Below, one piece after another: positions 48,454 through 61,066 of a stretch of DNA of 64,000 nucleotides (the stretch's first letter is position 1; every line of letters starts with the position of its first letter). The stretch comes from Gammaproteobacteria bacterium (lineage in GTDB: Bacteria > Pseudomonadota > Gammaproteobacteria > Pseudomonadales > Pseudohongiellaceae): the NCBI GenBank assembly GCA_029246545.1, contig JAQWMX010000008.1, positions 62,001-126,000 of the forward strand. The letters run 5' to 3'. A model generated the notes under the pieces. The model saw nothing but the letters and a program-made list of their open reading frames with translations. It had not been told where the DNA came from and made no database searches. Both the position numbers and the translations under genes were made by a program.

Positions 48454-48597
48454 ATACAATAATTTGTAATTTTTGCGTTGAGAATTAAGAGTAATGAAGA
48501 GTAAAATTGTCCTCGTTGAGGATGAGAACGTTTATAGTCCTCTAAAAAAACCAATATTTATTTAATTAATTCACCTACTCTAATGGAATACTTCTCA

Positions 48598-50058
48598 ATG
48601 AAACGAATTAATTCACCAATTAAATTAAAGCATTTGGTACTAGCAACGTTCTTAATGCAGGCTGTATCTATTGCATACGCAGCGGATCAAGCATTGCTAG
48701 ATATTTTGCTGCAAAACGGCGCAATAACTCAGGAACAATATAATGGACTTATAGAACAGGAGTCTCTTACTAGCGCAGATATTTTAGGTCAGCCTGTCGC
48801 TCAAGAAAATGTCATTGAAGAAAGCGTGATAGAGGAAAGTGCTTTAGAAGAAATGGTTGCGGCTGAAGTTAGCGAACAAATTGAAAACGAATTTCCAGTA
48901 ACAGCTAGCCGAGATAGTAGTGGCTTCCGTCTGGAGACACGTGACGGCAATTGGCAAACTAATTTGCAGTGGCGTGCACAAATGCGTTTTACCACACCTT
49001 ACCGGTCTGACCCCAGACAGATATCTAGTTTAAATGCTCAAGATCAATCAAATTTTGAGGCTCGTCGCCTGCGTATGAAAATCGGTGGGCATGGTTTGAA
49101 GCCTTGGATCCAATACTATTTCGAGGTGGATATGCAACCTTCACGCGATGTGGATGATAGTAGTTCTTCATCTGGTGCGAGAGTAATTGACTACCGCATT
49201 GATATTGCTAAATGGGATTGGGGCGGTATTCGTCTTGGTCAGTGGAAGGTAGATCTTAACCGTGAGCGTGTTGACTCCTCTGGTAGACAACAGTTCGTCG
49301 AACGTTCAATAGCTAACAGAGTATTTACGATGGACCGACAACTGGGTGTTCAGTTAAGAGGTCATTTATTCCAAGACACGCCTGCAGATATGCGTTATTA
49401 CGCAGGCGTATTTAATGGTGAAGGTCGTGGAGTCAATAATACTGATAACGATTTAATGTATATGGCTCGTTTGCAATGGAATTTCATGGGCCGAGACCTT
49501 TCTTTTAGACAAACTGATGTTGAATATACTGAACAGCCAACCGGAAGCCTAGCAATCGCAGGCTTCACCAATACTGGTAGTTGTACGCGTTGGTCATCTT
49601 CAGGTTGTGGCAATCTCGATGGTTTTGCGAAGCCAGCACTTGCAACACCTGGCCAATTTAAAACTGAACAAGTTGTACAAGAATTTGCATTCAAATATAA
49701 AGGCTTTTCCGCTCAACAAGAATTTCATCGTAAAGTTATAGATGATCAATCTGATGGAAGTAGGCATGTGTTAACTGGTGGATATGCTCAAGCTGGATAC
49801 TTCTTCCATAACTTATTCCCAGCAATACCAGCGCCTCTTGAATTGGCGATACGTTACGCTTATGTTGACGAGCCGAACGCAACTAATAGAGCTTTAGAAA
49901 ACGATCGTGAGGAATTTACCCTTGGCGCGAACTGGTTCTTTAATGGTCACGATAGCAAGGTGACTTTAGACTTTTCACGCTTGAGTGTTGATGACGCTCT
50001 TCTGGCAATCGAAGGGTCAGATAATCGTATGCGCATACAGTGGGATGTTCAGTTCTAA
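48598..50058 (+). CDS. Outer-membrane porin, OprO/OprP-type
   Basis: 486 residues from ATG 48598 (an ATG at 48583 adds five residues). A signal peptide ends at AYAADQ, then a short helical/coiled N-terminus typical of phosphate-type porins (LLDILLQNGAITQEQYNGLI), then many alternating beta strands rich in aromatic residues (WQTNLQWRAQMRF, RRLRMKIGGHGLKPWIQYYFEVD, WGGIRLGQWKVDLNRERVDSSG) and a C-terminal strand ending in Phe (RIQWDVQF), as in trimeric porins. OprP/OprO channels favour phosphate or pyrophosphate; selectivity here is not shown. It lies just upstream of the Fur-boxed imelysin operon, with 155 bases between. Confidence 0.85.
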   Translation: MKRINSPIKLKHLVLATFLMQAVSIAYAADQALLDILLQNGAITQEQYNGLIEQESLTSADILGQPVAQENVIEESVIEESALEEMVAAEVSEQIENEFPVTASRDSSGFRLETRDGNWQTNLQWRAQMRFTTPYRSDPRQISSLNAQDQSNFEARRLRMKIGGHGLKPWIQYYFEVDMQPSRDVDDSSSSSGARVIDYRIDIAKWDWGGIRLGQWKVDLNRERVDSSGRQQFVERSIANRVFTMDRQLGVQLRGHLFQDTPADMRYYAGVFNGEGRGVNNTDNDLMYMARLQWNFMGRDLSFRQTDVEYTEQPTGSLAIAGFTNTGSCTRWSSSGCGNLDGFAKPALATPGQFKTEQVVQEFAFKYKGFSAQQEFHRKVIDDQSDGSRHVLTGGYAQAGYFFHNLFPAIPAPLELAIRYAYVDEPNATNRALENDREEFTLGANWFFNGHDSKVTLDFSRLSVDDALLAIEGSDNRMRIQWDVQF

Positions 50059-50154: not shown

Positions 50155-50182
50155 TTGACTTATTAATGAGAATCATTATCAT
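50155..50182 (+). promoter_or_regulatory. Promoter with overlapping Fur box for the imelysin operon
   Basis: -35 TTGACT at 50155-50160 and -10 TATCAT at 50177-50182 with 16 bases between. The interval 50162-50180 (ATTAATGAGAATCATTATC) matches the classical 19-base Fur consensus at 16 of 19 positions and overlaps the spacer and -10, the usual site for iron-dependent repression. The first gene of the operon starts 32 bases downstream. Confidence 0.8.
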
Positions 50183-50213: not shown

Positions 50214-51476
50214 ATGCTTAGTAAATTTTGTACCCTGGCTTGTTTAATATGCCTCGCAGGCTGTTCTACCAGTCGTCTTGATAATGAAACAACATCGCAT
50301 GATGCTATTGTTGCTACCTATATAGCTATCGCTCAAGCAGCTTACGAAGATTCCTTAATATCAGCGAGAGTGCTAGATGATGCTGTCGATGCTTTTCTAG
50401 TAGAGCCCAATCAAACCACACTAACTTACGCTAAAAATGCTTGGTTAGCAGCTCGTGTTCCTTATCAGCAGACAGAGGCATTTCGTTTCGGCAATGCTGT
50501 GGTTGATGAATGGGAAGGCGGGGTGAATTCCTGGCCTTTAGATGAAGGCTTGATTGATTACACTGCTGAAAGTTACGGCGAAGAGTCCGACAATAACTAT
50601 TTTTACACAGCAAATATTATTGCCAATGATTTGATAGATATTGGTGGAATAAGTGTCGATGCTGCACAAATTACCCCTCAGCTTCTGGCAGAGACCCTAC
50701 ATCAGATTGATGGAGTTGAGTCTAATGTGGCGACGGGTTATCACGCGATAGAGTTTTTATTGTGGGGGCAAGATTTAAATGGAACTAGCCCTGGTGCAGG
50801 TAATCGTCCGGCTTCAGATTACTCTTTGGATAACTGCTCAAATAGAAACTGTGATCGGCGTCGAGATTATTTAAAAGCAGTTACCAGTTTGTTGGTCTCA
50901 GACTTAGATGAGATGGTTTATAACTGGCAACCTGGTGGCGCCGCTTATGAAGATTTAATGAGCAAAGGACCAGACGGTGGTCTTGCCACTATGCTTACAG
51001 GAATGGGTAGTTTGGCATACGGTGAATTAGCCGGCGAAAGAATAAGATTAGGGCTGTTATTAAATGATCCAGAAGAAGAGCATGATTGCTTCTCTGATAA
51101 TACGCATAACTCGCATTATTATGATGCTTTAGGAATTAAAAACGTATACATGGGCTCTTATGAAAGAATAAATGGGGACATGGTAATTGGTGCGTCATTG
51201 GCAAGGTTGATGCAACAAGAAGCACCTGCTTTAGCTGCTGAAATGCTGGCAAGAATAGAGAGTACTGAACTAGCCATGGAAGTATTGGTCGATGAAGCGG
51301 CCAAAGGTAATACCTTTGATGTGTTAATTGCGAGTAATAATATGGCTGGTGAAGAAGTGGTTTCGACAATTGTAGATTCCCTTATGGAAGAAACCAGAAC
51401 CATAGAAGATATTATTCGAGAATTAAATTTACAGAATGTAAGCATCTCAGGATCAGATAGCTTAGGCGGCTTATAA
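50214..51476 (+). CDS. irpA: Imelysin-family lipoprotein (IrpA-like, M75)
   Basis: 420 residues with a lipobox LAGC (Cys17), so attached to the outer membrane or facing the periplasm. The imelysin family signature GxHxxE is present as GYHAIE (Gly175, His177, Glu180), followed by FLLWGQDLNGTSPGAGNRPASD. The N-terminal half includes WLAARVPYQQTEAFRFGN and WPLDEGLIDY, and CSNRNCDRRRDYLKAV and GMGSLAYGELAGERIRL complete the IrpA pattern. IrpA-type imelysins are iron-regulated and needed for iron acquisition in cyanobacteria, perhaps by binding iron with the GxHxxE residues. It is the first gene of a Fur-controlled operon. Confidence 0.88.
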   Translation: MLSKFCTLACLICLAGCSTSRLDNETTSHDAIVATYIAIAQAAYEDSLISARVLDDAVDAFLVEPNQTTLTYAKNAWLAARVPYQQTEAFRFGNAVVDEWEGGVNSWPLDEGLIDYTAESYGEESDNNYFYTANIIANDLIDIGGISVDAAQITPQLLAETLHQIDGVESNVATGYHAIEFLLWGQDLNGTSPGAGNRPASDYSLDNCSNRNCDRRRDYLKAVTSLLVSDLDEMVYNWQPGGAAYEDLMSKGPDGGLATMLTGMGSLAYGELAGERIRLGLLLNDPEEEHDCFSDNTHNSHYYDALGIKNVYMGSYERINGDMVIGASLARLMQQEAPALAAEMLARIESTELAMEVLVDEAAKGNTFDVLIASNNMAGEEVVSTIVDSLMEETRTIEDIIRELNLQNVSISGSDSLGGL

Positions 51477-51499: not shown

Positions 51500-52747
51500 G
51501 TGATTGCAACATTAAAACTCTTTATGAATTTGCGATTACTCTTTGTGTTTTCCTCATTACTTGCCTGTAATATTAGTAATGCACAGAGTAACCCCTTTGG
51601 AGTTTCTAATGCTGGGTTGGATTATTTAACTGGCCAAGCGTTGTTTGAAAAAAATTGGGTAAGTGCGCCATCATCAACTCAAGCCAGTGATGGTTTAGGG
51701 CCGCTATACAATGCTCGTTCTTGTGTGCAGTGTCATATGGGTGCAGGTAAAGGGCGGCTGCCTATTGCTTTAAATTTTCGCATAGACAGTGATTATTTTG
51801 GTAGTCAAATACAAACCAGAGCAGTCTCTGGATTGCCAGCTGAAGCGGAAAGTGAAATTGCTTACAGTAATAGAATAGAAACGCTGGCCGATAATACTGA
51901 AGTAATCTTGCATGAACCACTCTACAAGATTATTACAATGGAAGATGGACAAGGGGAACTAATTAAAAAGTCGCCTCGATTGGCACCAGCTTTGTTTGGT
52001 CTTGGTTTATTAGACGCTATTCCTTTACAAGAATTATTAAACAAAGCAGACCCAGATGATCATGATAATGATGGAATTTCTGGGATTGTAGGTACTGGCC
52101 GTTTTGGTTGGAAAGCCGATGTCGCAAACCTAGAAGAACAAACTGGCTTAGCCTTAAGTGTAGACATAGGCATAAGTTCTGAATTGTTTCCAAACCCTTT
52201 TGGTGATTGTACTGAGCAACAAGATTATTGTTTATTATCACCTCATGGCGCCTCTAGGGAGGACCAGAACTTAGAAATCGGACATGTAGCATTTGCCAGT
52301 CTGCTCAATTTCATAAGAAATATTCCGCTACCTGTTGGTAGCGAAGATAGTGCCGGAAATAATAGTGTTGGTGCAGGTGAGGCATTATTTGAAAATATTG
52401 GCTGTATAAGCTGTCACTCTAATAGCTATTCAACAAATGATAGCCAAGCAAACAACAATCCTTATTCAGATCTATTGCTGCATGATATGGGTGAAGCACT
52501 GGCAGATAGCCTCGATAATGAATTGTCCTATGAGTGGCGCACACCTCCTTTGTGGGGGCTTTCAGCCTATATAGATTCTCAACGAAGCAATGAGCAGGAG
52601 CAGCTTTACTTGCATGATGGAAGAGCTAGAAGCTTGGTAGAAGCCATTTTATGGCACGATGGTGAAGCAAGGGGCTCAAAACAAGCGTTTAAAGCTTTAT
52701 CAATGCAAGATAGAGCAGATTTAATCAATTTCTTACAAAGCATATAA
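51500..52747 (+). CDS. Di-heme oxidoreductase-like c-type cytochrome (DUF1111/IrpB-like)
   Basis: 415 residues with a signal peptide (starts GTG 51500 or ATG 51524; neither has a good ribosome site). Two c-type heme motifs: CVQCHMG (Cys75, Cys78, His79) and CISCHS near residue 301, with the family segments PLYNARSCVQCH, SPRLAPALFGLGLLDAIP, GRFGWKADVANLEEQ and DHDNDGISGIVG (calcium-like acidic loop). Members next to imelysins are called IrpB or di-heme thiol oxidoreductases. It lies 23 bases after irpA and seven bases before the second imelysin gene, so is in the operon. Acting as a heme redox partner for iron uptake is inference. Confidence 0.85.
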   Translation: MIATLKLFMNLRLLFVFSSLLACNISNAQSNPFGVSNAGLDYLTGQALFEKNWVSAPSSTQASDGLGPLYNARSCVQCHMGAGKGRLPIALNFRIDSDYFGSQIQTRAVSGLPAEAESEIAYSNRIETLADNTEVILHEPLYKIITMEDGQGELIKKSPRLAPALFGLGLLDAIPLQELLNKADPDDHDNDGISGIVGTGRFGWKADVANLEEQTGLALSVDIGISSELFPNPFGDCTEQQDYCLLSPHGASREDQNLEIGHVAFASLLNFIRNIPLPVGSEDSAGNNSVGAGEALFENIGCISCHSNSYSTNDSQANNNPYSDLLLHDMGEALADSLDNELSYEWRTPPLWGLSAYIDSQRSNEQEQLYLHDGRARSLVEAILWHDGEARGSKQAFKALSMQDRADLINFLQSI

Positions 52748-52754
52748 TACAAAG

Positions 52755-53834
52755 ATGAATAAATATTTCACAAAACTAACAGGGCTTATCTTATTTCTGT
52801 CTTTACTAGTATCGGCTGGACAGCTTGCTCATGGGCAAAACCTTCTTACGCTTGATGAAGATTGGACAGCTATTAATATAGCAGTAACTGATGACTTAGT
52901 TATTCCGGCTTACCAAGAATTAGAATCTCGATCTGTTGCATTAATTACTGCAAGTGAAAATTTTTGCGCTGCTTTAAGTGATTCTAATTTAAATGCTTTA
53001 AAGAATGCTTATCAACAAACAATGAATGCTTGGCAAGGTGTTCAGCATATTCAATTTGGCCCTATTACTTATTTTAATTGGAATTTCCGACTCCAATATT
53101 GGCCAGATGAGCGTGGTACTACTGGTCGACAACTAGATGCTTTAATCGCATCACAGGATGACACAATACTAATTAGTGATAGTTTTGGCAGGCAGAGCGT
53201 CGGGGTTCAAGGATTGCCAGCATTAGAAATAATTCTTTACGAGGATGATACCCTGAGTGAATTTCAAAACAACGATTATTTGTGTTCATTAACTCAGACT
53301 ATTGCTCGCAATATAAATGAGGTCAGTTCAGGTGTTACTCAACGTTGGGTAGATGAATATCGTGACTTAGTGCTTGATCCAGTTGAGGGTGGGTTTTATG
53401 AAGATGCCGAAGATTTAAGCATCGATTTCCTGAAAGCCTTGCAAGAAGCCATAGCGAAAATACGTGACTTAAAATTAACACCAGCGCTAGGAGATTCTTT
53501 TACCAGTGCCAGAAATCGTTCCGCTGAATCCTGGCGTTCAGGAAATTCACTAGCAAATATTAAAAATAATATTCTAAGTTTAGAGCCATTATTTTCTGCT
53601 TACTCTGCAGCTTTTTATACCGAAGATGTCGCTGCGGTTAACGCTGTCTTCAGAGATTTGGAACCTTATCTTGCTGCATTACCAAACTCATTGTCAGTTG
53701 CGCTTGCGAATGAAGCGCAATATGCCCAGTTACAGACATTGCATTCAGAGATAGAGGCACTACATGAAGCGCTAGAAACAGCTTTAAAAAATACTGATTT
53801 GTATCTTGGCTTTAACAGTTTGGACGGGGACTAG
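52755..53834 (+). CDS. Second imelysin-family protein, GxxxLE variant
   Basis: 359 residues with signal peptide (MNKYFTKLTGLILFLSLLVSAGQ, cleaved near AHGQ). WQGVQHIQFGPITYFNWNFRLQYWPDERG and KNAYQQTMNAWQ (quoted in part) give the imelysin pattern. The position of GxHxxE reads GVQGLPALEIILYED, so Glu is kept but His is replaced (GLPALE). The GLPALE form is known among the second imelysins of such operons, which suggests the two paralogues bind differently. It sits between the di-heme protein and the DUF1513 gene with one intervening base, so translation of the next gene is likely coupled. Confidence 0.83.
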   Translation: MNKYFTKLTGLILFLSLLVSAGQLAHGQNLLTLDEDWTAINIAVTDDLVIPAYQELESRSVALITASENFCAALSDSNLNALKNAYQQTMNAWQGVQHIQFGPITYFNWNFRLQYWPDERGTTGRQLDALIASQDDTILISDSFGRQSVGVQGLPALEIILYEDDTLSEFQNNDYLCSLTQTIARNINEVSSGVTQRWVDEYRDLVLDPVEGGFYEDAEDLSIDFLKALQEAIAKIRDLKLTPALGDSFTSARNRSAESWRSGNSLANIKNNILSLEPLFSAYSAAFYTEDVAAVNAVFRDLEPYLAALPNSLSVALANEAQYAQLQTLHSEIEALHEALETALKNTDLYLGFNSLDGD

Positions 53835-53835
53835 T

Positions 53836-54984
53836 ATGTCTGCCGTTGGTATTCCAAGACGCTCTGTTTTAAGCCTCGCATTATTACTTGCTGCTGAGCC
53901 TGCATTTTCTAATTTTAATGAATCGTCTTCCTCAGTTTTTTTAAGCGCTGCTTCTGATAGTGATGAGAGGCATTGGCTTAAGGCTTTTACTATTGATAAT
54001 GATCAAATCAAAGAGCTTTATAGTCATCAGCTTAGTGCTCGTGCCCATGATGTTGTGATAAATAATATGTCAGATTTATTTGTATGTGTAGCACGTCGGC
54101 CAGGTAAATTTTTATTAATAGGCGATGTGAGTAGTGGAAATATTTTGCAAGAAATTGAAGCAATAGAAGGTAGACATTTTTATGGTCATGGCGTGTTTTC
54201 TGCAGATGATGAATATTTTTATACCACTGAAAGTGTTTATGAGGACCAGCAAGGAGACAATGGCTGTATAGGCGTCTGGCGGGTGAGTCGAGCTTTAACG
54301 GATGCATCACTTGAGCGTGTTAATGAGTTTCCTACCTATGGAGTTGGACCACATGAAGTATTGCTTATGCCAGATCAGGGAACCTTGGTAATTGCTAATG
54401 GTGGTATTCGTACGCATCCTGACTTTGAACGCGAAAAACTCAATATTGATTCTATGCAGCCTTCTTTAAGCTATATTAATAGAGAGACTGGAACTCTTTT
54501 AGAACAACAGTATTTACCTGTTGAGTATCATCAGGCCAGCATTCGGCATATGGATATTAATACTAGCGGGCAGTTGGCTATTGCAATGCAATTTGAAGGC
54601 GAACCTTTTTTAAGAGTGCCATTATTAGCTACACATCAACGAGGTGAAGCTATTCGTCTAATGCTGGCGCCTGAACAAGTTCAATCGCAACTGGAACAAT
54701 ACGTCGGATCTATCCGCTATGATGAAAGCGGCCGCTTTTTAGTAGCCTCATGTCCGCGTGCAAATGTTCTGACCTTTTGGGACGCTGAAAGTGGAGAATT
54801 TCTGAAGCAGCTTAGAGCAAGAGATGCCTGTGGCGTTAGTGCTTATAAAGACGGCTTCATATATAGCGCCGGCACCGGACAGATTCGATATTATGATTTA
54901 ACTCAACAAGCCATCACTAATTTTACAACCCAGAATGAATTCTCCAATGGTTTATTTTGGGATAATCATTTAGCGGTGATCTAG
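53836..54984 (+). CDS. DUF1513 family periplasmic beta-propeller-like protein
   Basis: 382 residues from ATG 53836. The N-terminus has a twin arginine (PRRSVLSLALLLAA) resembling a Tat signal, consistent with other DUF1513 proteins that are exported folded. The body consists of beta-rich repeats: AFTIDNDQIKELYSHQLSARAHDV, LFVCVARRPGKFLLIGDVSSG, EVLLMPDQGTLVIANGGIRTHPDF (each in part), and ISRHMDINTSGQL-like RHMDIN. This protein is a constant member of imelysin operons in Proteobacteria. Function unknown; an iron-binding or protein-docking role is a guess. Confidence 0.82.
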   Translation: MSAVGIPRRSVLSLALLLAAEPAFSNFNESSSSVFLSAASDSDERHWLKAFTIDNDQIKELYSHQLSARAHDVVINNMSDLFVCVARRPGKFLLIGDVSSGNILQEIEAIEGRHFYGHGVFSADDEYFYTTESVYEDQQGDNGCIGVWRVSRALTDASLERVNEFPTYGVGPHEVLLMPDQGTLVIANGGIRTHPDFEREKLNIDSMQPSLSYINRETGTLLEQQYLPVEYHQASIRHMDINTSGQLAIAMQFEGEPFLRVPLLATHQRGEAIRLMLAPEQVQSQLEQYVGSIRYDESGRFLVASCPRANVLTFWDAESGEFLKQLRARDACGVSAYKDGFIYSAGTGQIRYYDLTQQAITNFTTQNEFSNGLFWDNHLAVI

Positions 54985-56145
54985 ATGATGAAAATTTTTA
55001 TCTTTTTCCTTTTTATTGCTGGTTTAACCGGAAAGGCCCTGGCAGCAGATGAAGCTGATATACAAAATACTAAAATGGCTGACTTGGGTGCGGCATTGTT
55101 TTTTGATGTGAATCTATCTAATGACCGTACTCAAAGTTGCGCAACTTGTCATGACCCTGCACGAGCATTTATAGATTGGCGCGATAATGGTGTAGCTGCA
55201 GCCGCATCTCTTGGTGGTGATTTAATTTCTTTAGGTGATAGGAATGCGCCGACTCTTTCTTATGCAGCACTGACACCTGACTTCCATATCAATGAAGAAG
55301 GTGAATACGAGGGCGGTTTATTTGTCGATGGGCGTGAACTGAATTTAGCAGACCAAGCAGGTGGACCTCCTTTAAATCCGATTGAAATGGCCTTTCCTAA
55401 TAAAGCTACAGTTATCCAACGCTTATTAGAAAGCCAAATATACGTAACAGCTTTTAAAGAACTTTTTGGTGAAATCATTTTTGACAACATTGATCTTGCT
55501 TATCAAGCTATGACAGAAAGTATCGCCGCTTATGAACAGGCTGATTTTTTCTCACCTTTTGATTCTAAATATGATCGTTATTTGCGTGATGAATACGAAT
55601 TAACGCGTGATGAAGAATTAGGAATGGTTTTATTTTTTTCTGAACAATTTACTAACTGCAACCAATGTCATCAACTAAACAATTTACCAGGCTCTACAAG
55701 AGAAACTTTCACCAGTTACACTTACGATAATATTGGCGTACCAATCAATAGAAAATTACGTGAGGCTAATGGCATAGGAATTCAATATATCGATCAAGGC
55801 CTGTTAGAAAACCCGCTGGTCAATAATTTAACTGACGCTGGAAAATTTAAAGTGCCAACATTGAGAAATATCGCTATCACTGCACCTTATATGCATAATG
55901 GTGTGTTTCAAGAATTAAAAACAGTGATTCGGTTTTACGATAAATATAATACCAGGAGCAGCTCCGCACAGATAAATCCAGAAACAGGAGAGATTTGGGG
56001 TGAGCCAGAAGTTGCTGAAAATATATCCATAACAGAACTTGAATCAGCCCCAGCACTTGATGAAAGAAGAATGGATGCATTAATTGCTTTTTTATACACA
56101 CTAACAGATAGTCGTTACGAAGCCCTTCTTGAAATTGAAAATTAA
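54985..56145 (+). CDS. MauG/CcpA-family di-heme cytochrome c peroxidase-like protein
   Basis: 386 residues, signal peptide with cleavage near KALAADEAD. Two heme motifs: CATCHD (Cys52, Cys55, His56) and CNQCHQ near residue 223. Other family segments are DNGVAAAASLGGDLISLGDRNAPTLSYAAL (quoted in part), DGRELNLADQAGGPPLNPIEMA, and KVPTLRNIAITAPYMHNGVF. ATG 54985 directly follows the DUF1513 stop, so it belongs to the same operon. It could be a peroxidase, or like MauG a protein oxidant; a role in oxidising ferrous iron for uptake is a hypothesis that fits the company it keeps. Confidence 0.85.
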   Translation: MMKIFIFFLFIAGLTGKALAADEADIQNTKMADLGAALFFDVNLSNDRTQSCATCHDPARAFIDWRDNGVAAAASLGGDLISLGDRNAPTLSYAALTPDFHINEEGEYEGGLFVDGRELNLADQAGGPPLNPIEMAFPNKATVIQRLLESQIYVTAFKELFGEIIFDNIDLAYQAMTESIAAYEQADFFSPFDSKYDRYLRDEYELTRDEELGMVLFFSEQFTNCNQCHQLNNLPGSTRETFTSYTYDNIGVPINRKLREANGIGIQYIDQGLLENPLVNNLTDAGKFKVPTLRNIAITAPYMHNGVFQELKTVIRFYDKYNTRSSSAQINPETGEIWGEPEVAENISITELESAPALDERRMDALIAFLYTLTDSRYEALLEIEN

Positions 56146-56175
56146 TTTATACGAGAAAAATAGTAAAATAATCTG

Positions 56176-58035
56176 ATGAAATTTGTTGATACAGAAATAA
56201 GTAAACGCTTACATGATCATGCCAATGGAATCATGGGTAGGTACTGCACCTTAGTTGGCATTAGTGAAGAAGCAGTTCAGTCTACTCGTGCTTTTTTTGA
56301 TATTTATAATCTTGAAGGGAATCGCTTAAGTGGTAGCAGTAATGGCGACCATGTTCTAAAAAATATATTTAAAGGTGAAACTAGCAAAATTTTCACTAAA
56401 GCCGTTGAGTTTCGTCCATTCCAAGATGCTGAACTAATAACCATGATTCAGAGCTTAGTTGCATCGGATATTGCTAATGCAGAATTCAAATATACCTCAA
56501 GAGGTGACCACTTTGCTTTTTCAAAGCCCAGTGATAGTGAAAAAGCAGCCGATAATATTCGTATCGCACATGATAAATATGCGTATTTTTTAAAAATGTT
56601 GGCAACAATTGAAAAAATTATTGAAAGTCATGGTGAATGCTTTCAGCAGTGGAGTGGACTCGTTGATGTTGGGAAAGTAGCTAATAATATTAAGATACTT
56701 GATGAGGTAGTTCAGAATTTAGCCATGGAGCCAGACGGTTCAGACACAATTAAAACATCTGGTTTAACTTTAGATGATTTAGGTATGCAGGTGACACTAG
56801 AACCAAATGTTGCAAAAGAAACGGGTATTAAAAACACTAAAATAAAAACTCACTGCCATTTGCCTGGCAATGCAGCAGCTGAATATATCCAAAGTTGTGG
56901 CTTGCATAAATATGCACAGGAAGCATTAGTGGTCGCACAGTTAATAGAGTATGCAGAGAGTGTAAGAAGTATTGATGCGCCTTTTTATGGCACCTTTCCT
57001 AAAGTACTAGCACCAGATGGCTTAGGTCTTCGTTTATCTTTTCATAAATTCCACCATGCTTACTTGCTACGGGAAGGTCAGGGAGGGATTCCAGGTGTTG
57101 ATGTTTCTGCATCGATGTATAAAGAATTAGGCGGAACAGAAGCCCTAATAAAACATTTGCAAGAGCAAGGACTAGTTACTGAATTAATAAAACGGGAAAA
57201 TGATTTTCGTCGAGGCCGTACTAATAATCTGCGCTGGGCTGAAGCTAAGTCTTTAGTCGAGCTCGAAAATGCTTTAGATGCTTATGCTGATACAAAGGCT
57301 AAAGATAGTGTATTGAGAGTACATATTATTAAACATTTCTTAAACAGTGTAAGTGAAAATTTCGGTGATTTTTCCTTAGGTGAAGTTGACTCAGAAAGTG
57401 GTGAGCCAGTAACAGTAGTTGTTTTACCTTCTCCTAACATGGCGGGAAAATCGACTTCTTTAAAAGCCTTAGGTTTAATTTTACAAGGTGCTTTAATGGG
57501 AAGAACTGTCGCTGCTGAAAGTGCTGAGCTTACAGTTCCAGATCAGGTATATCATAACTTTAATGTTGAAGATGATCTCACTCATCAACGCAGTACGTTC
57601 AAAGCTCAATTAGAAAACATTAAAGACTTTCTTGATAACGCCACGATTGATAGCCTGGGTCTTTTTGATGAATTATTTAATGGCACCAGTTCAGATTATC
57701 AGTTGGCCTTGGCTTGGGCGTTTTTGGAAAAATGTTCGGAGCGCAGTTTGCGAGTGATGATTTCTACGCATAACCGTGATCTAGAATATTATAGTGACCC
57801 AATGGGATACGAGCATATTAAAGGCTCTCATGGTCGTCCAAATGACGCTATTAATCCGAAGGGAGGCCGTAATGCAAAAACTGTTTCGATTGGTCACGAT
57901 CATAAATTCAAGTATGGATCAGAACGCGATAGTGAAGCGCTAGTTATAGCAAGTGAAGTGTTAAGCCCTAAGCATGATGATATTTTGCAAAGAGCCGATG
58001 CTATTTTGACTCACATTCGCTCAGACCGAGATTAA
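56176..58035 (+). CDS. Divergent MutS-like ATPase without mismatch-recognition domain
   Basis: 619 residues. The C-terminal third matches the MutS ATPase: Walker A SPNMAGKSTSLKALG (about 417-431), a VEDDLTHQRSTFKAQLENI helix equivalent to the MutS DD...STF segment, Walker B LGLFDELFNGTSS (about 494-506) and STHNRDLEYYS (H-loop-like). The first 400 residues lack the MutS mismatch-reading domain with its Phe-x-Glu motif and are helical, containing HCHLPGNAAAEYIQSCGLH and FHKFHHAYLLREGQGG. After the ATPase comes a His/Lys/Gly-rich stretch (IKGSHGRPNDAINPKGG). It starts 30 bases after the di-heme gene on the same strand. The role is unknown; DNA-structure sensing is the family's common theme. Confidence 0.7.
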   Translation: MKFVDTEISKRLHDHANGIMGRYCTLVGISEEAVQSTRAFFDIYNLEGNRLSGSSNGDHVLKNIFKGETSKIFTKAVEFRPFQDAELITMIQSLVASDIANAEFKYTSRGDHFAFSKPSDSEKAADNIRIAHDKYAYFLKMLATIEKIIESHGECFQQWSGLVDVGKVANNIKILDEVVQNLAMEPDGSDTIKTSGLTLDDLGMQVTLEPNVAKETGIKNTKIKTHCHLPGNAAAEYIQSCGLHKYAQEALVVAQLIEYAESVRSIDAPFYGTFPKVLAPDGLGLRLSFHKFHHAYLLREGQGGIPGVDVSASMYKELGGTEALIKHLQEQGLVTELIKRENDFRRGRTNNLRWAEAKSLVELENALDAYADTKAKDSVLRVHIIKHFLNSVSENFGDFSLGEVDSESGEPVTVVVLPSPNMAGKSTSLKALGLILQGALMGRTVAAESAELTVPDQVYHNFNVEDDLTHQRSTFKAQLENIKDFLDNATIDSLGLFDELFNGTSSDYQLALAWAFLEKCSERSLRVMISTHNRDLEYYSDPMGYEHIKGSHGRPNDAINPKGGRNAKTVSIGHDHKFKYGSERDSEALVIASEVLSPKHDDILQRADAILTHIRSDRD

Positions 58036-58181: not shown

Positions 58182-60035
58182 CTAATAGGCCCAAGTTTGC
58201 AGTCCAACAAAACCCCAACTTGCCAGAAACAACATCAGTATCAAAAGACCGACTGTCGTATGTAGGGCATGGTGCCAAACCCATATGCCAATTTCATGAC
58301 GTCGGGGAAAGTGCGACAACACTACATAAAGAGACAATACCGCAAGAACTGGATAGATTAGCGATACCAGCCAGTACCCACCAGTCCAGATTGAGACGGA
58401 GGACAAACTATCTAATCCCTGTAGATTCATGGCTAGGAATACCAACAGAGCGAATACAACTGAACCGATAATAGGAATTATTCTGACTAGGGCATGGATT
58501 GCCTGCTTCCTCTGACCTCTGATTTTTTGAAAGCCCCAAACCAGTGTAAAGAGTAAGGAACTGGCTAAGATAATAATGGCATAGACAAGAGCTACCAGGC
58601 GGCCGTAGGCGATCACCGGACTTATTTTCTTGAAGGTACCTGAATCTGCTTGCATTAACTCTTCGTTATCGGGAGAGGTTACAAAGGCATAAGAGGCTAG
58701 AACTTCCGCTTCTCGTTTGAACTGATTATTACCAACGGGGAGTAAATCAGTAGCGGCTCCGAATAAAGGATTGACTTGAAGACCGCCATCTACATATTGG
58801 ACACGACTAAATCCTAGGCGTCCAATGCCAGCCAGTATTTCCATTCGGGGTGAATCTGCTTCATAAAATCCAGTTAATGAAATTAAATCATCTTCAGTTT
58901 GTTCTATTGTTGTTACTGCTTCAGGAGCAGTGAGGTCTCTCGTTATAAAACCAACAATCTCTTCATCAATTCTATTAAAGGCTGCTAGGTTGCCCTGATT
59001 AACCGAGTAAAAATAACCACGTTGGAATTCCGGCAGGTAAGCATAACGAGATATGAATGCGTCAATACCACCGTCATGCCCATGAAACACAAAACCATTT
59101 TTTTGAGTTGTGTAGTTGCTGAGCCCATAACCTACCTGTAAACCCGCTGTAGATGCCAACGTAGAGCTTGATGTTTCCATTCGGGTAAGAGACTGGGGTT
59201 GAATCAATGCAACGCCATCCAGTGTGCCCCTGCCGATGTACATTTTTAATAATTGAGCCATGTCTGAACTGGTGGCATTAAGTGAACCTGAAGACCGCAC
59301 CGGTATATGGATGTAAGGCGAAGCCGAACCGTCAAGGTTAAAGCTCGACGAGACGCCTTCAACATGGAAAAATGAAGCCGTGTTCATGCCCAAGGGTGCA
59401 AATATTTCCCTGTTAACGAAGTTTTCGAAACTCATGCCTGTAACATTTTCTAAAGCTAGAGCGGCTATCGCGGGTCCTATATTGGAATAGGCCATTCGTG
59501 TGCCCGGTCTCCAGCGTACTTCTCTAGAATTGTTGTTAAATTCAATGCCTTCAAGGGTCGTTACATTGGGGTCACTAAACTCAAAATCTCGGAAATGAAT
59601 ATCATCAAAACCTGCGGTGTGCTCTAGAACATGAACGAGTCTGACAGGGTCTGTTTCCTGCCACGCGTTTTCTACCCCCGCCCTTGGTGCTACTTCACTA
59701 ATAAGATCATCAAGGTTCAATTGCCCGCTTTCCACCAGTTTGAGAATTGCTAGAGAGGTAATGGATTTTGATATAGAGCCAACACGAAATTGAGTATCAA
59801 CTGTAACTGGCCTTTCTATTATTTTGTTAGCAAACCCGAGTGCGCCACGCCAGATGGTTTCATCACCATAGACAATTGTTGCAATCATACCCGGCGTTTC
59901 GGTTTCTTCTAGGATGAGATTAATTCTCTGCTCAAGCTCCTCTAAGGAATTGGCTGGCACGAATTCCTCCGCTGCATTTAATAGAACGCATTGTGTCAGG
60001 ATTAAAAACCCTAAATATAATTTTATTGTTCTCAT
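58182..60035 (-). CDS. Class C beta-lactamase-fold serine hydrolase with membrane tail
   Basis: 617 residues. A signal peptide (MRTIKLYLGFLILTQCVLLN) is followed by a penicillin-binding/beta-lactamase class C domain: SISK (Ser87, Lys90), YSN near residue 165, and GHDGGIDAF as the third box. The C-terminal part, residues about 470-617, has four membrane helices (LVALVYAIIILASSLLFTL, IIPIIGSVVFALLVFLAM, WLVSLIYPVLAVLSLYVVL and LLILMLFLASWGFVGLQ). These proteins are usually esterases or peptidases of unknown substrate rather than antibiotic-resistance enzymes. It converges with the MutS-like gene. Confidence 0.85.
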   Translation of the reverse strand: MRTIKLYLGFLILTQCVLLNAAEEFVPANSLEELEQRINLILEETETPGMIATIVYGDETIWRGALGFANKIIERPVTVDTQFRVGSISKSITSLAILKLVESGQLNLDDLISEVAPRAGVENAWQETDPVRLVHVLEHTAGFDDIHFRDFEFSDPNVTTLEGIEFNNNSREVRWRPGTRMAYSNIGPAIAALALENVTGMSFENFVNREIFAPLGMNTASFFHVEGVSSSFNLDGSASPYIHIPVRSSGSLNATSSDMAQLLKMYIGRGTLDGVALIQPQSLTRMETSSSTLASTAGLQVGYGLSNYTTQKNGFVFHGHDGGIDAFISRYAYLPEFQRGYFYSVNQGNLAAFNRIDEEIVGFITRDLTAPEAVTTIEQTEDDLISLTGFYEADSPRMEILAGIGRLGFSRVQYVDGGLQVNPLFGAATDLLPVGNNQFKREAEVLASYAFVTSPDNEELMQADSGTFKKISPVIAYGRLVALVYAIIILASSLLFTLVWGFQKIRGQRKQAIHALVRIIPIIGSVVFALLVFLAMNLQGLDSLSSVSIWTGGYWLVSLIYPVLAVLSLYVVLSHFPRRHEIGIWVWHHALHTTVGLLILMLFLASWGFVGLQTWAY

Positions 60036-60280: not shown

Positions 60281-61066
60281 TTATGTTTCTGCGATTACAA
60301 ACACTGCATTTCTTATTAAGTCTGGAGGAATTTGATATTTTATTTTTGCATGCAGTTCTGGAAGTTTTGACCAGTGCAGACCTTGATTAAAATGATGAGC
60401 AGTATGATAACCAAGATTGCCAGTCAAAATGTTGAAGAGGCGGTTAATATTATTATATGACGCCAGAAACTGATCACCAGTCTCCAGACCAGAGTGATGA
60501 TCGTAGGTTACCCAGGCAGTAAAAAAGAGACTGATAATCATCGGCAGTATAAATAAAATCATGGCCGGCACAAAATTAAACCAAGACAAAAGGATAAGGC
60601 CTGATAAGGTAAGTAGTGAATAAAGCACAAAGTCATATTGAACCCGAGCAAATTTTCTGCCTACCTGAAAGCCCCTGAAATAAGCTGTGAATGCAATCGA
60701 CAAGGTATATTCGAATTCATTCATTGCTTTACCATTCTTACGCTGCCAGGCACTTTCATCACTGCTTTGATCCAGAAAATTTCTGTGGTGTCCCAACACA
60801 TGATGCAATACCCATAGGTTTGTGGTGGCACCAGTATGCAATGCGTAAAAAAATTCCAGTAAGCGATTTAATGGTTTCCAAAAGAATGTAGGCGTATGTT
60901 GATGATGGTGGTTCCATGCACAAATAATGCCCTTTGGGATAATCATCACTAACAAATAGATTAGTAATAACCAGATATTATCGACCATGAAATACATGGT
61001 GAAGTCGAGGGTGCTTAACAGAAGGACAAGAAAGACTGGGAAACGATCAGCTGAAAATCTAAACAT
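60281..61066 (-). CDS. Membrane fatty acid desaturase
   Basis: 261 residues with the three histidine clusters of membrane-bound di-iron desaturases: HHHQH at 53-57, HHVLGHH at 88-94 and HTAHH near 224. Four or five hydrophobic helices alternate with these (LLLSTLDFTMYFM, IWLLLIYLLVMII, LLTLSGLILLSWF). The chain is compact compared with acyl-CoA or acyl-lipid desaturases (300-380 residues), closer to short desaturase/hydroxylase-like proteins. Start MFRFSADRFPVF is the first Met of the frame; no signal is needed. The gene is an isolated unit between two direct repeats, so it may have arrived separately from its neighbours. Confidence 0.82.
   Translation of the reverse strand: MFRFSADRFPVFLVLLLSTLDFTMYFMVDNIWLLLIYLLVMIIPKGIICAWNHHHQHTPTFFWKPLNRLLEFFYALHTGATTNLWVLHHVLGHHRNFLDQSSDESAWQRKNGKAMNEFEYTLSIAFTAYFRGFQVGRKFARVQYDFVLYSLLTLSGLILLSWFNFVPAMILFILPMIISLFFTAWVTYDHHSGLETGDQFLASYNNINRLFNILTGNLGYHTAHHFNQGLHWSKLPELHAKIKYQIPPDLIRNAVFVIAET

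Follow-up and report, generated by a model that had tools for sequence, protein, structure and literature searches.

MutS-type ATPases that do not serve mismatch repair have for the most part not been characterised (PMC12292046). Among the described members, MutS2 of Thermus thermophilus (7vuf) and Bacillus subtilis is a short protein that lacks domains I and II and carries domain V and a helix-turn-helix. A second point of reference is the imelysin operon PA4370-PA4373 of Pseudomonas aeruginosa, which comprises an imelysin, an EfeB-like peroxidase, a second imelysin and a fourth gene and is regulated by Fur, a Fur operon being switched on by low iron (PMC3143127). In the window, i.e., the whole stretch of 64,000 nt analysed here, we found a similar set of iron genes, followed by a gene for a short MutS-like ATPase which shares domain V and the helix-turn-helix with MutS2.

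All six genes lie on the plus strand. Based on Pfam, they encode a first imelysin (Peptidase_M75, 50214..51476), a di-haem oxidoreductase (DHOR, 51500..52747), a second imelysin (52755..53834), a DUF1513 protein (53806..54984), a MauG-like di-haem cytochrome c peroxidase (54985..56145, also assigned by NCBIfam), and, as the last operon gene according to gene order in the genus, the MutS-like ATPase (56176..58035). In comparison with PA4370-PA4373, a MauG-like gene follows here, plus the MutS-like gene in this genus only. A Fur-box-like site, ATTAATGAGAATCATTATC, with 16/19 consensus bases was located 33 nt before the first operon gene (50162..50180, plus strand), overlapping the best promoter-like match (50155-50182). 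Since the plus strand of the whole window harbors 11 sites with at least 14 Fur consensus matches, a single site of this kind is weak, and the evidence lies in its conserved position: all five genus members have a Fur-box-like site ahead of the first operon gene at roughly this position, with 15/19 bases in the other four (L033-L036). The genome also encodes Fur, and we infer from these sites that the operon is probably under Fur control. Directly upstream of the imelysin operon, the window carries a porin gene of the phosphate-selective O/P type (48583-50058), while this position is taken by pstB- and phoU-like genes in L034 and by size-matched ORFs in L033, L035, and L036. On the other side, a 617-aa protein with a domain of the beta-lactamase/esterase type (58182-60035, minus strand) converges on the MutS-like gene, followed by a fatty acid desaturase (60281-61066, minus strand).

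The gene order is kept in 5/5 genus members, with the MutS-like gene starting 30 nt after MauG in the window and about 20-30 nt after it throughout the genus, and the neighbour downstream of it varies. Together with the Fur-box-like sites, this order upholds the tie to the iron genes that a sequence-only reading of the locus had proposed. That reading had also named an independent promoter combined with missing co-occurrence as the opposite outcome; a single 9/12 match at 56135-56164 lies within chance expectation and was not accepted as a promoter, and the gene co-occurs with the iron genes in all five genomes. Six genomes from two further genera of the family carry the five iron genes, with an unchanged order wherever the stretch is complete, and lack the MutS-like gene. 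Since the operons of these sister genera end at MauG, the MutS-like gene seems to have been added in this genus, the simplest history being one addition at or before the genus ancestor, and since the five genes occur there by themselves, the iron system can do without it. A single addition after MauG in one genus would also suit a passenger, i.e., a gene that landed at the operon end by chance and is only co-transcribed, with a job unrelated to iron and compatible with any substrate. The same can be said of its location, as no hydrophobic or signal segment was detected in the MutS-like protein (highest 19-residue mean 1.21) and it would therefore work in the cytoplasm, apart from operon neighbours that look exported. 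What speaks against a passenger is the place itself, kept at this short distance in five of five species while the downstream neighbour changed, so that we regard this explanation as possible but doubtful.

The ORF of the MutS-like ATPase (56176-58035, plus strand, ATG start) encodes 619 aa. Full-length orthologues with 80-86% identity were found in four genomes of the same genus (L033-L036), the start being identical and the length near-identical across all five. This identity is comparable to that of imelysin 1 and, in each comparison, above those of DHOR, imelysin 2, DUF1513, and MauG, and the dN/dS of 0.051 (L033 vs L034) equals the value for imelysin 1 and lies below those of the other four operon genes. 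The gene is under strong purifying selection and is a real gene, no chance ORF.

A search against Pfam revealed MutS_V as the sole match (residues 416-598, E 6e-24), and its 85.5 bits exceed the curated cut-off of PF00488 (MutS_V, 30.2 bits), which places the protein in the MutS superfamily. The ATPase of domain V covers residues 406-545 (57391..57810, plus strand), as indicated by Pfam, the PDB match, the alignment and the model. Based on the alignment, we identified Walker A (SPNMAGKST, residues 419-427, 57430..57456), the S-T motif (RSTF, residues 472-475, 57589..57600), Walker B and the D-loop (LGLFDELFNGTS, residues 494-505, 57655..57690, with Walker B LGLFDE at 494-499), and the His switch (ISTH, residues 529-532), confirming the MutS-type Walker A/B and STF motifs of the sequence-only reading. 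In this protein, Walker A starts with Ser in place of the Gly of MutS, an exchange which may alter the ATPase. The His/Gly/Lys-rich segment, which the same reading had taken for a tail, turned out to be a hairpin inside domain V (residues 546-581, 57811..57918, plus strand), located by alignment and genus conservation between the His switch and the helix-turn-helix and about 18 residues longer than in MutS1 and MutS2. Since it is about 90% invariant within the genus, like the ATPase (88%), the hairpin is part of the machine; its residue H576 aligns with a His conserved in the MutS1 rows five residues before a Gly. The C-terminal residues 582-619 (57919..58032, plus strand) form, by alignment and model, the putative helix-turn-helix subunit-pairing region with the pattern G..S.al.iA....il.rA and modelled helices at 588-596 and 601-615 (block pLDDT 67-89). 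Judged by sequence, residues 411-619 are thus an intact MutS domain V followed by the predicted helix-turn-helix region that pairs MutS subunits.

Most MutS subfamilies possess core and clamp/lever domains (III, IV). In the MutS-like protein, no Pfam match to the MutS_I, II, III, or IV domains (including PF01624 and PF05188) was found, and residues 1-405 matched nothing in Pfam, the PDB (E up to 10), plasmids, or phages. Using hhalign, the N-terminal half revealed nothing against MutS1, MutS2, and the short and paired MutS_V families. Outside the genus, residues 1-405 were detected in 0/132 other genomes of the family (one 13-bit scrap being ignored) and, among sampled genomes, in 0/368 of the class, 0/397 of the phylum and 0/48 of another class, these samples partly overlapping. 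The NCBIfam model for MutS1 reached 84 bits versus a cut-off of 480, with the ATPase alone contributing. Both the lack of a mismatch-reading domain and the unlikeness of the N-terminal c. 400 residues to MutS1 and MutS2, as noticed beforehand from the letters, were thereby borne out.

This half (all on the plus strand) starts with a unique part whose relatives were found in the genus only (residues 1-120, 56176..56535), followed by a mostly helical part with a low-confidence model (residues 121-270, 56536..56985, pLDDT about 30-50). The block FPKVL..LRLSFHKFHHAYLL (residues 271-300, 56986..57075) was aligned by MAFFT with the strands that precede domain V in MutS ('P.l...l.i..grHPvv'), with H294 (FHKFHHAYLL) on the GRHPVV motif of MutS1 and MutS2, though the profile test was not significant; the modelled strands 276-278 and 287-293 (block pLDDT 65-80) are partly driven by the input alignment. 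From this HP-like motif to the Walker A region, the alignment revealed an insertion of about 85-100 residues (residues 301-405, 57076..57390), MutS1 and MutS2 having far fewer residues there. An attempt to match residues 240-305 by hand to the final part of MutS domain III scored no better than shuffles and was rejected. In the model, helix 121-157 (pLDDT about 40) overlies the first core (domain III) helix of MutS and MutS2 in many of the best structural matches, and this placement does not come from the alignment, because the MutS rows are gapped there. With about 145 residues where MutS2 has about 268, the protein has too little room for both a complete core and a clamp, and the model at most hints at a shortened MutS core in residues 121-270.

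In regard to structure, a model built from the five orthologues only (pLDDT 35.6) was discarded, while one with MutS1 and MutS2 ATPase rows added reached pLDDT 50.4 and is usable for the ATPase only, residues 1-270 and 301-405 being poor (mostly below 50). Searched against the PDB, this model matched MutS and MutS2 structures with Z 14.6-17.5, mainly over the ATPase. By sequence, MutS2 and MutS1 were also the nearest PDB entries, over residues c. 405-548 only, with the T. thermophilus MutS2 core 7vuf as the best match (E 3e-19 over 413-548). That these two are the closest solved structures to the ATPase agrees with a MutS2-like clamp without mismatch reader acting on branched or damaged DNA, which would be useful under iron or peroxide stress; MutS2, lacking domains I and II, reportedly binds Holliday junctions and D-loops (PMC12292046). 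However, neither Pfam nor profiles detected a core or clamp domain, Fur operons are active when iron is scarce, and the iron genes of the sister genera stand without the MutS-like gene, so that such a role appears somewhat unlikely. The link to oxidative damage is the weakest step of the first reading, because the operon is expected to be on at low iron. Fenton chemistry is expected to be low under this condition.

Further differences from MutS2 concern the domain content. Apart from the undetected core and clamp sequence, the MutS-like ATPase lacks SMR and KOW domains by Pfam, residues 1-120 and 301-405 are unique to it, and it forms its own branch in the tree; the NCBIfam model for MutS2 (TIGR01069) gave 74 bits against a cut-off of 400, again from the ATPase alone. 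The protein could also act on ribosomes or RNA and, using its ATPase for splitting or rescue as B. subtilis MutS2 does, adjust translation when iron is short. This would accord with the splitting of stalled ribosomes by MutS2 (PMC10897456), which indicates that a MutS engine can act on ribosomes, but recruitment of MutS2 depends on SMR and KOW domains (PMC10897456), neither of which Pfam finds here, and we consider this role quite improbable.

With MutS1, the protein shares the domain V motifs, the helix-turn-helix and the aligned hairpin His five residues before Gly, whereas domains I-IV were undetected and it falls outside the MutS1 clade. PF00488 resulted in only two matches in the genome, namely a separate MutS1 of 855 aa and the MutS-like gene, no MutS2 being found among them, and MutL is encoded as well. 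The MutS-like ATPase is not the mismatch repair MutS of the cell.

In a tree of ATPase domains (38 sequences, 139 columns), the five orthologues formed one fully supported branch of length 2.96 that grouped with none of the reference sets included, namely MutS1, MutS2, the tandem MutS_V pairs and the short MutS_V proteins; the deep joins of this tree are unsafe given 139 columns and long branches. The distinct branch suggested by the sequence-only reading is supported by this separation from MutS1 and MutS2 and by the N-terminal half without detectable relative. KamC, the reactivase ATPase of lysine 5,6-aminomutase, is likewise a short protein with a MutS_V ATPase, and its NCBIfam model (NF052383) matched at 5e-15, which would be in line with a protein-remodelling or reactivating ATPase serving a metalloenzyme or cofactor loading in an operon of haem and iron proteins, as would the invariant clusters H226-C227-H228 and H290/H293/H294. 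Nevertheless, the match is limited to the ATPase and its 55 bits are far under the cut-off of 300, the sampled tandem MutS_V pairs group elsewhere in the tree, and the haem proteins of the operon are presumably exported while the MutS-like protein is not; a KamC-like function is therefore unlikely. Short MutS_V proteins (470-530 aa) of other genera of the family and MutS-family proteins of Bacteroidota also combine small size with a domain V ATPase. They differ in Walker B (DEPFKGTN, DEILKGTN, or DEIYRGTN versus DELFNGTS here), belong to a separate tree branch, and have N-terminal parts that do not align with the MutS-like ATPase.

Several other MutS-type genes were recorded during the searches. 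Genomes of the same family, including one of the same genus (G001), carry a different MutS_V protein of 470-530 aa, mostly with DEPFKGTN as Walker B (L043-L049). Tandem MutS_V pairs (c. 385-580 aa), mostly annotated as hypothetical and falling into two sister clades, were found on plasmids of Rubrobacter, Mycobacterium branderi, and Burkholderia (L068 1901-4611; L069 1607-4662; L070 1508-4542). A scan of viral contigs for MutS1 yielded 80 loci (of 338; L112-L191), most of which have a similar mutS placed right at a contig end, as would result if prophage predictions had run over into a neighbouring chromosomal mutS.

Relatives of the MutS-like ATPase itself were not found among the viral contigs scanned, and plasmid and phage matches covered the ATPase and little more, the annotated ones being mostly MutS1, MutS2, and other MutS-family proteins. 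When 390 genomes of the order were searched with a full-length profile, the true gene scored 1365 bits, and the next matches were ATPases the size of MutS1, none of them above 74.5 bits. Across 84,980 species, a peptide-pattern scan, which detects close matches only, matched just four members of the genus, the other genome searches being within Pseudomonadota. Taken together, the sequences point to a separate, genus-restricted MutS branch, and relatives of its N-terminal half may exist in phyla beyond Pseudomonadota.

Altogether, the explanation we favour, with about an even chance of being right, is that of a separate genus-restricted branch of the MutS superfamily which came to occupy the last position in a Fur-controlled iron operon and encodes a dimeric MutS-type remodelling ATPase. 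By analogy with other MutS-family proteins, it would dimerise, form two composite ATP sites, and use the binding and hydrolysis of ATP to open and close helical N-terminal arms around a substrate. It would be made at iron scarcity alongside the iron-uptake and peroxidase proteins. The most likely kind of substrate would be a nucleic acid or nucleoprotein (a DNA structure or the ribosome), because characterised MutS and MutS2 proteins act there (PMC12292046; PMC10897456). More tentatively, it might represent a new subfamily of MutS whose N-terminal architecture is its own, starting with 120 unique residues, having a core that is reduced or replaced, and carrying an insertion of 100 residues from the first domain V strands to Walker A, and might act as an iron-starvation factor on a substrate other than mismatched DNA. 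As the same iron operon occurs with and without the MutS-like gene across sister genera, it offers a clean natural comparison, and the gene makes it a testable question what else a MutS engine can do.
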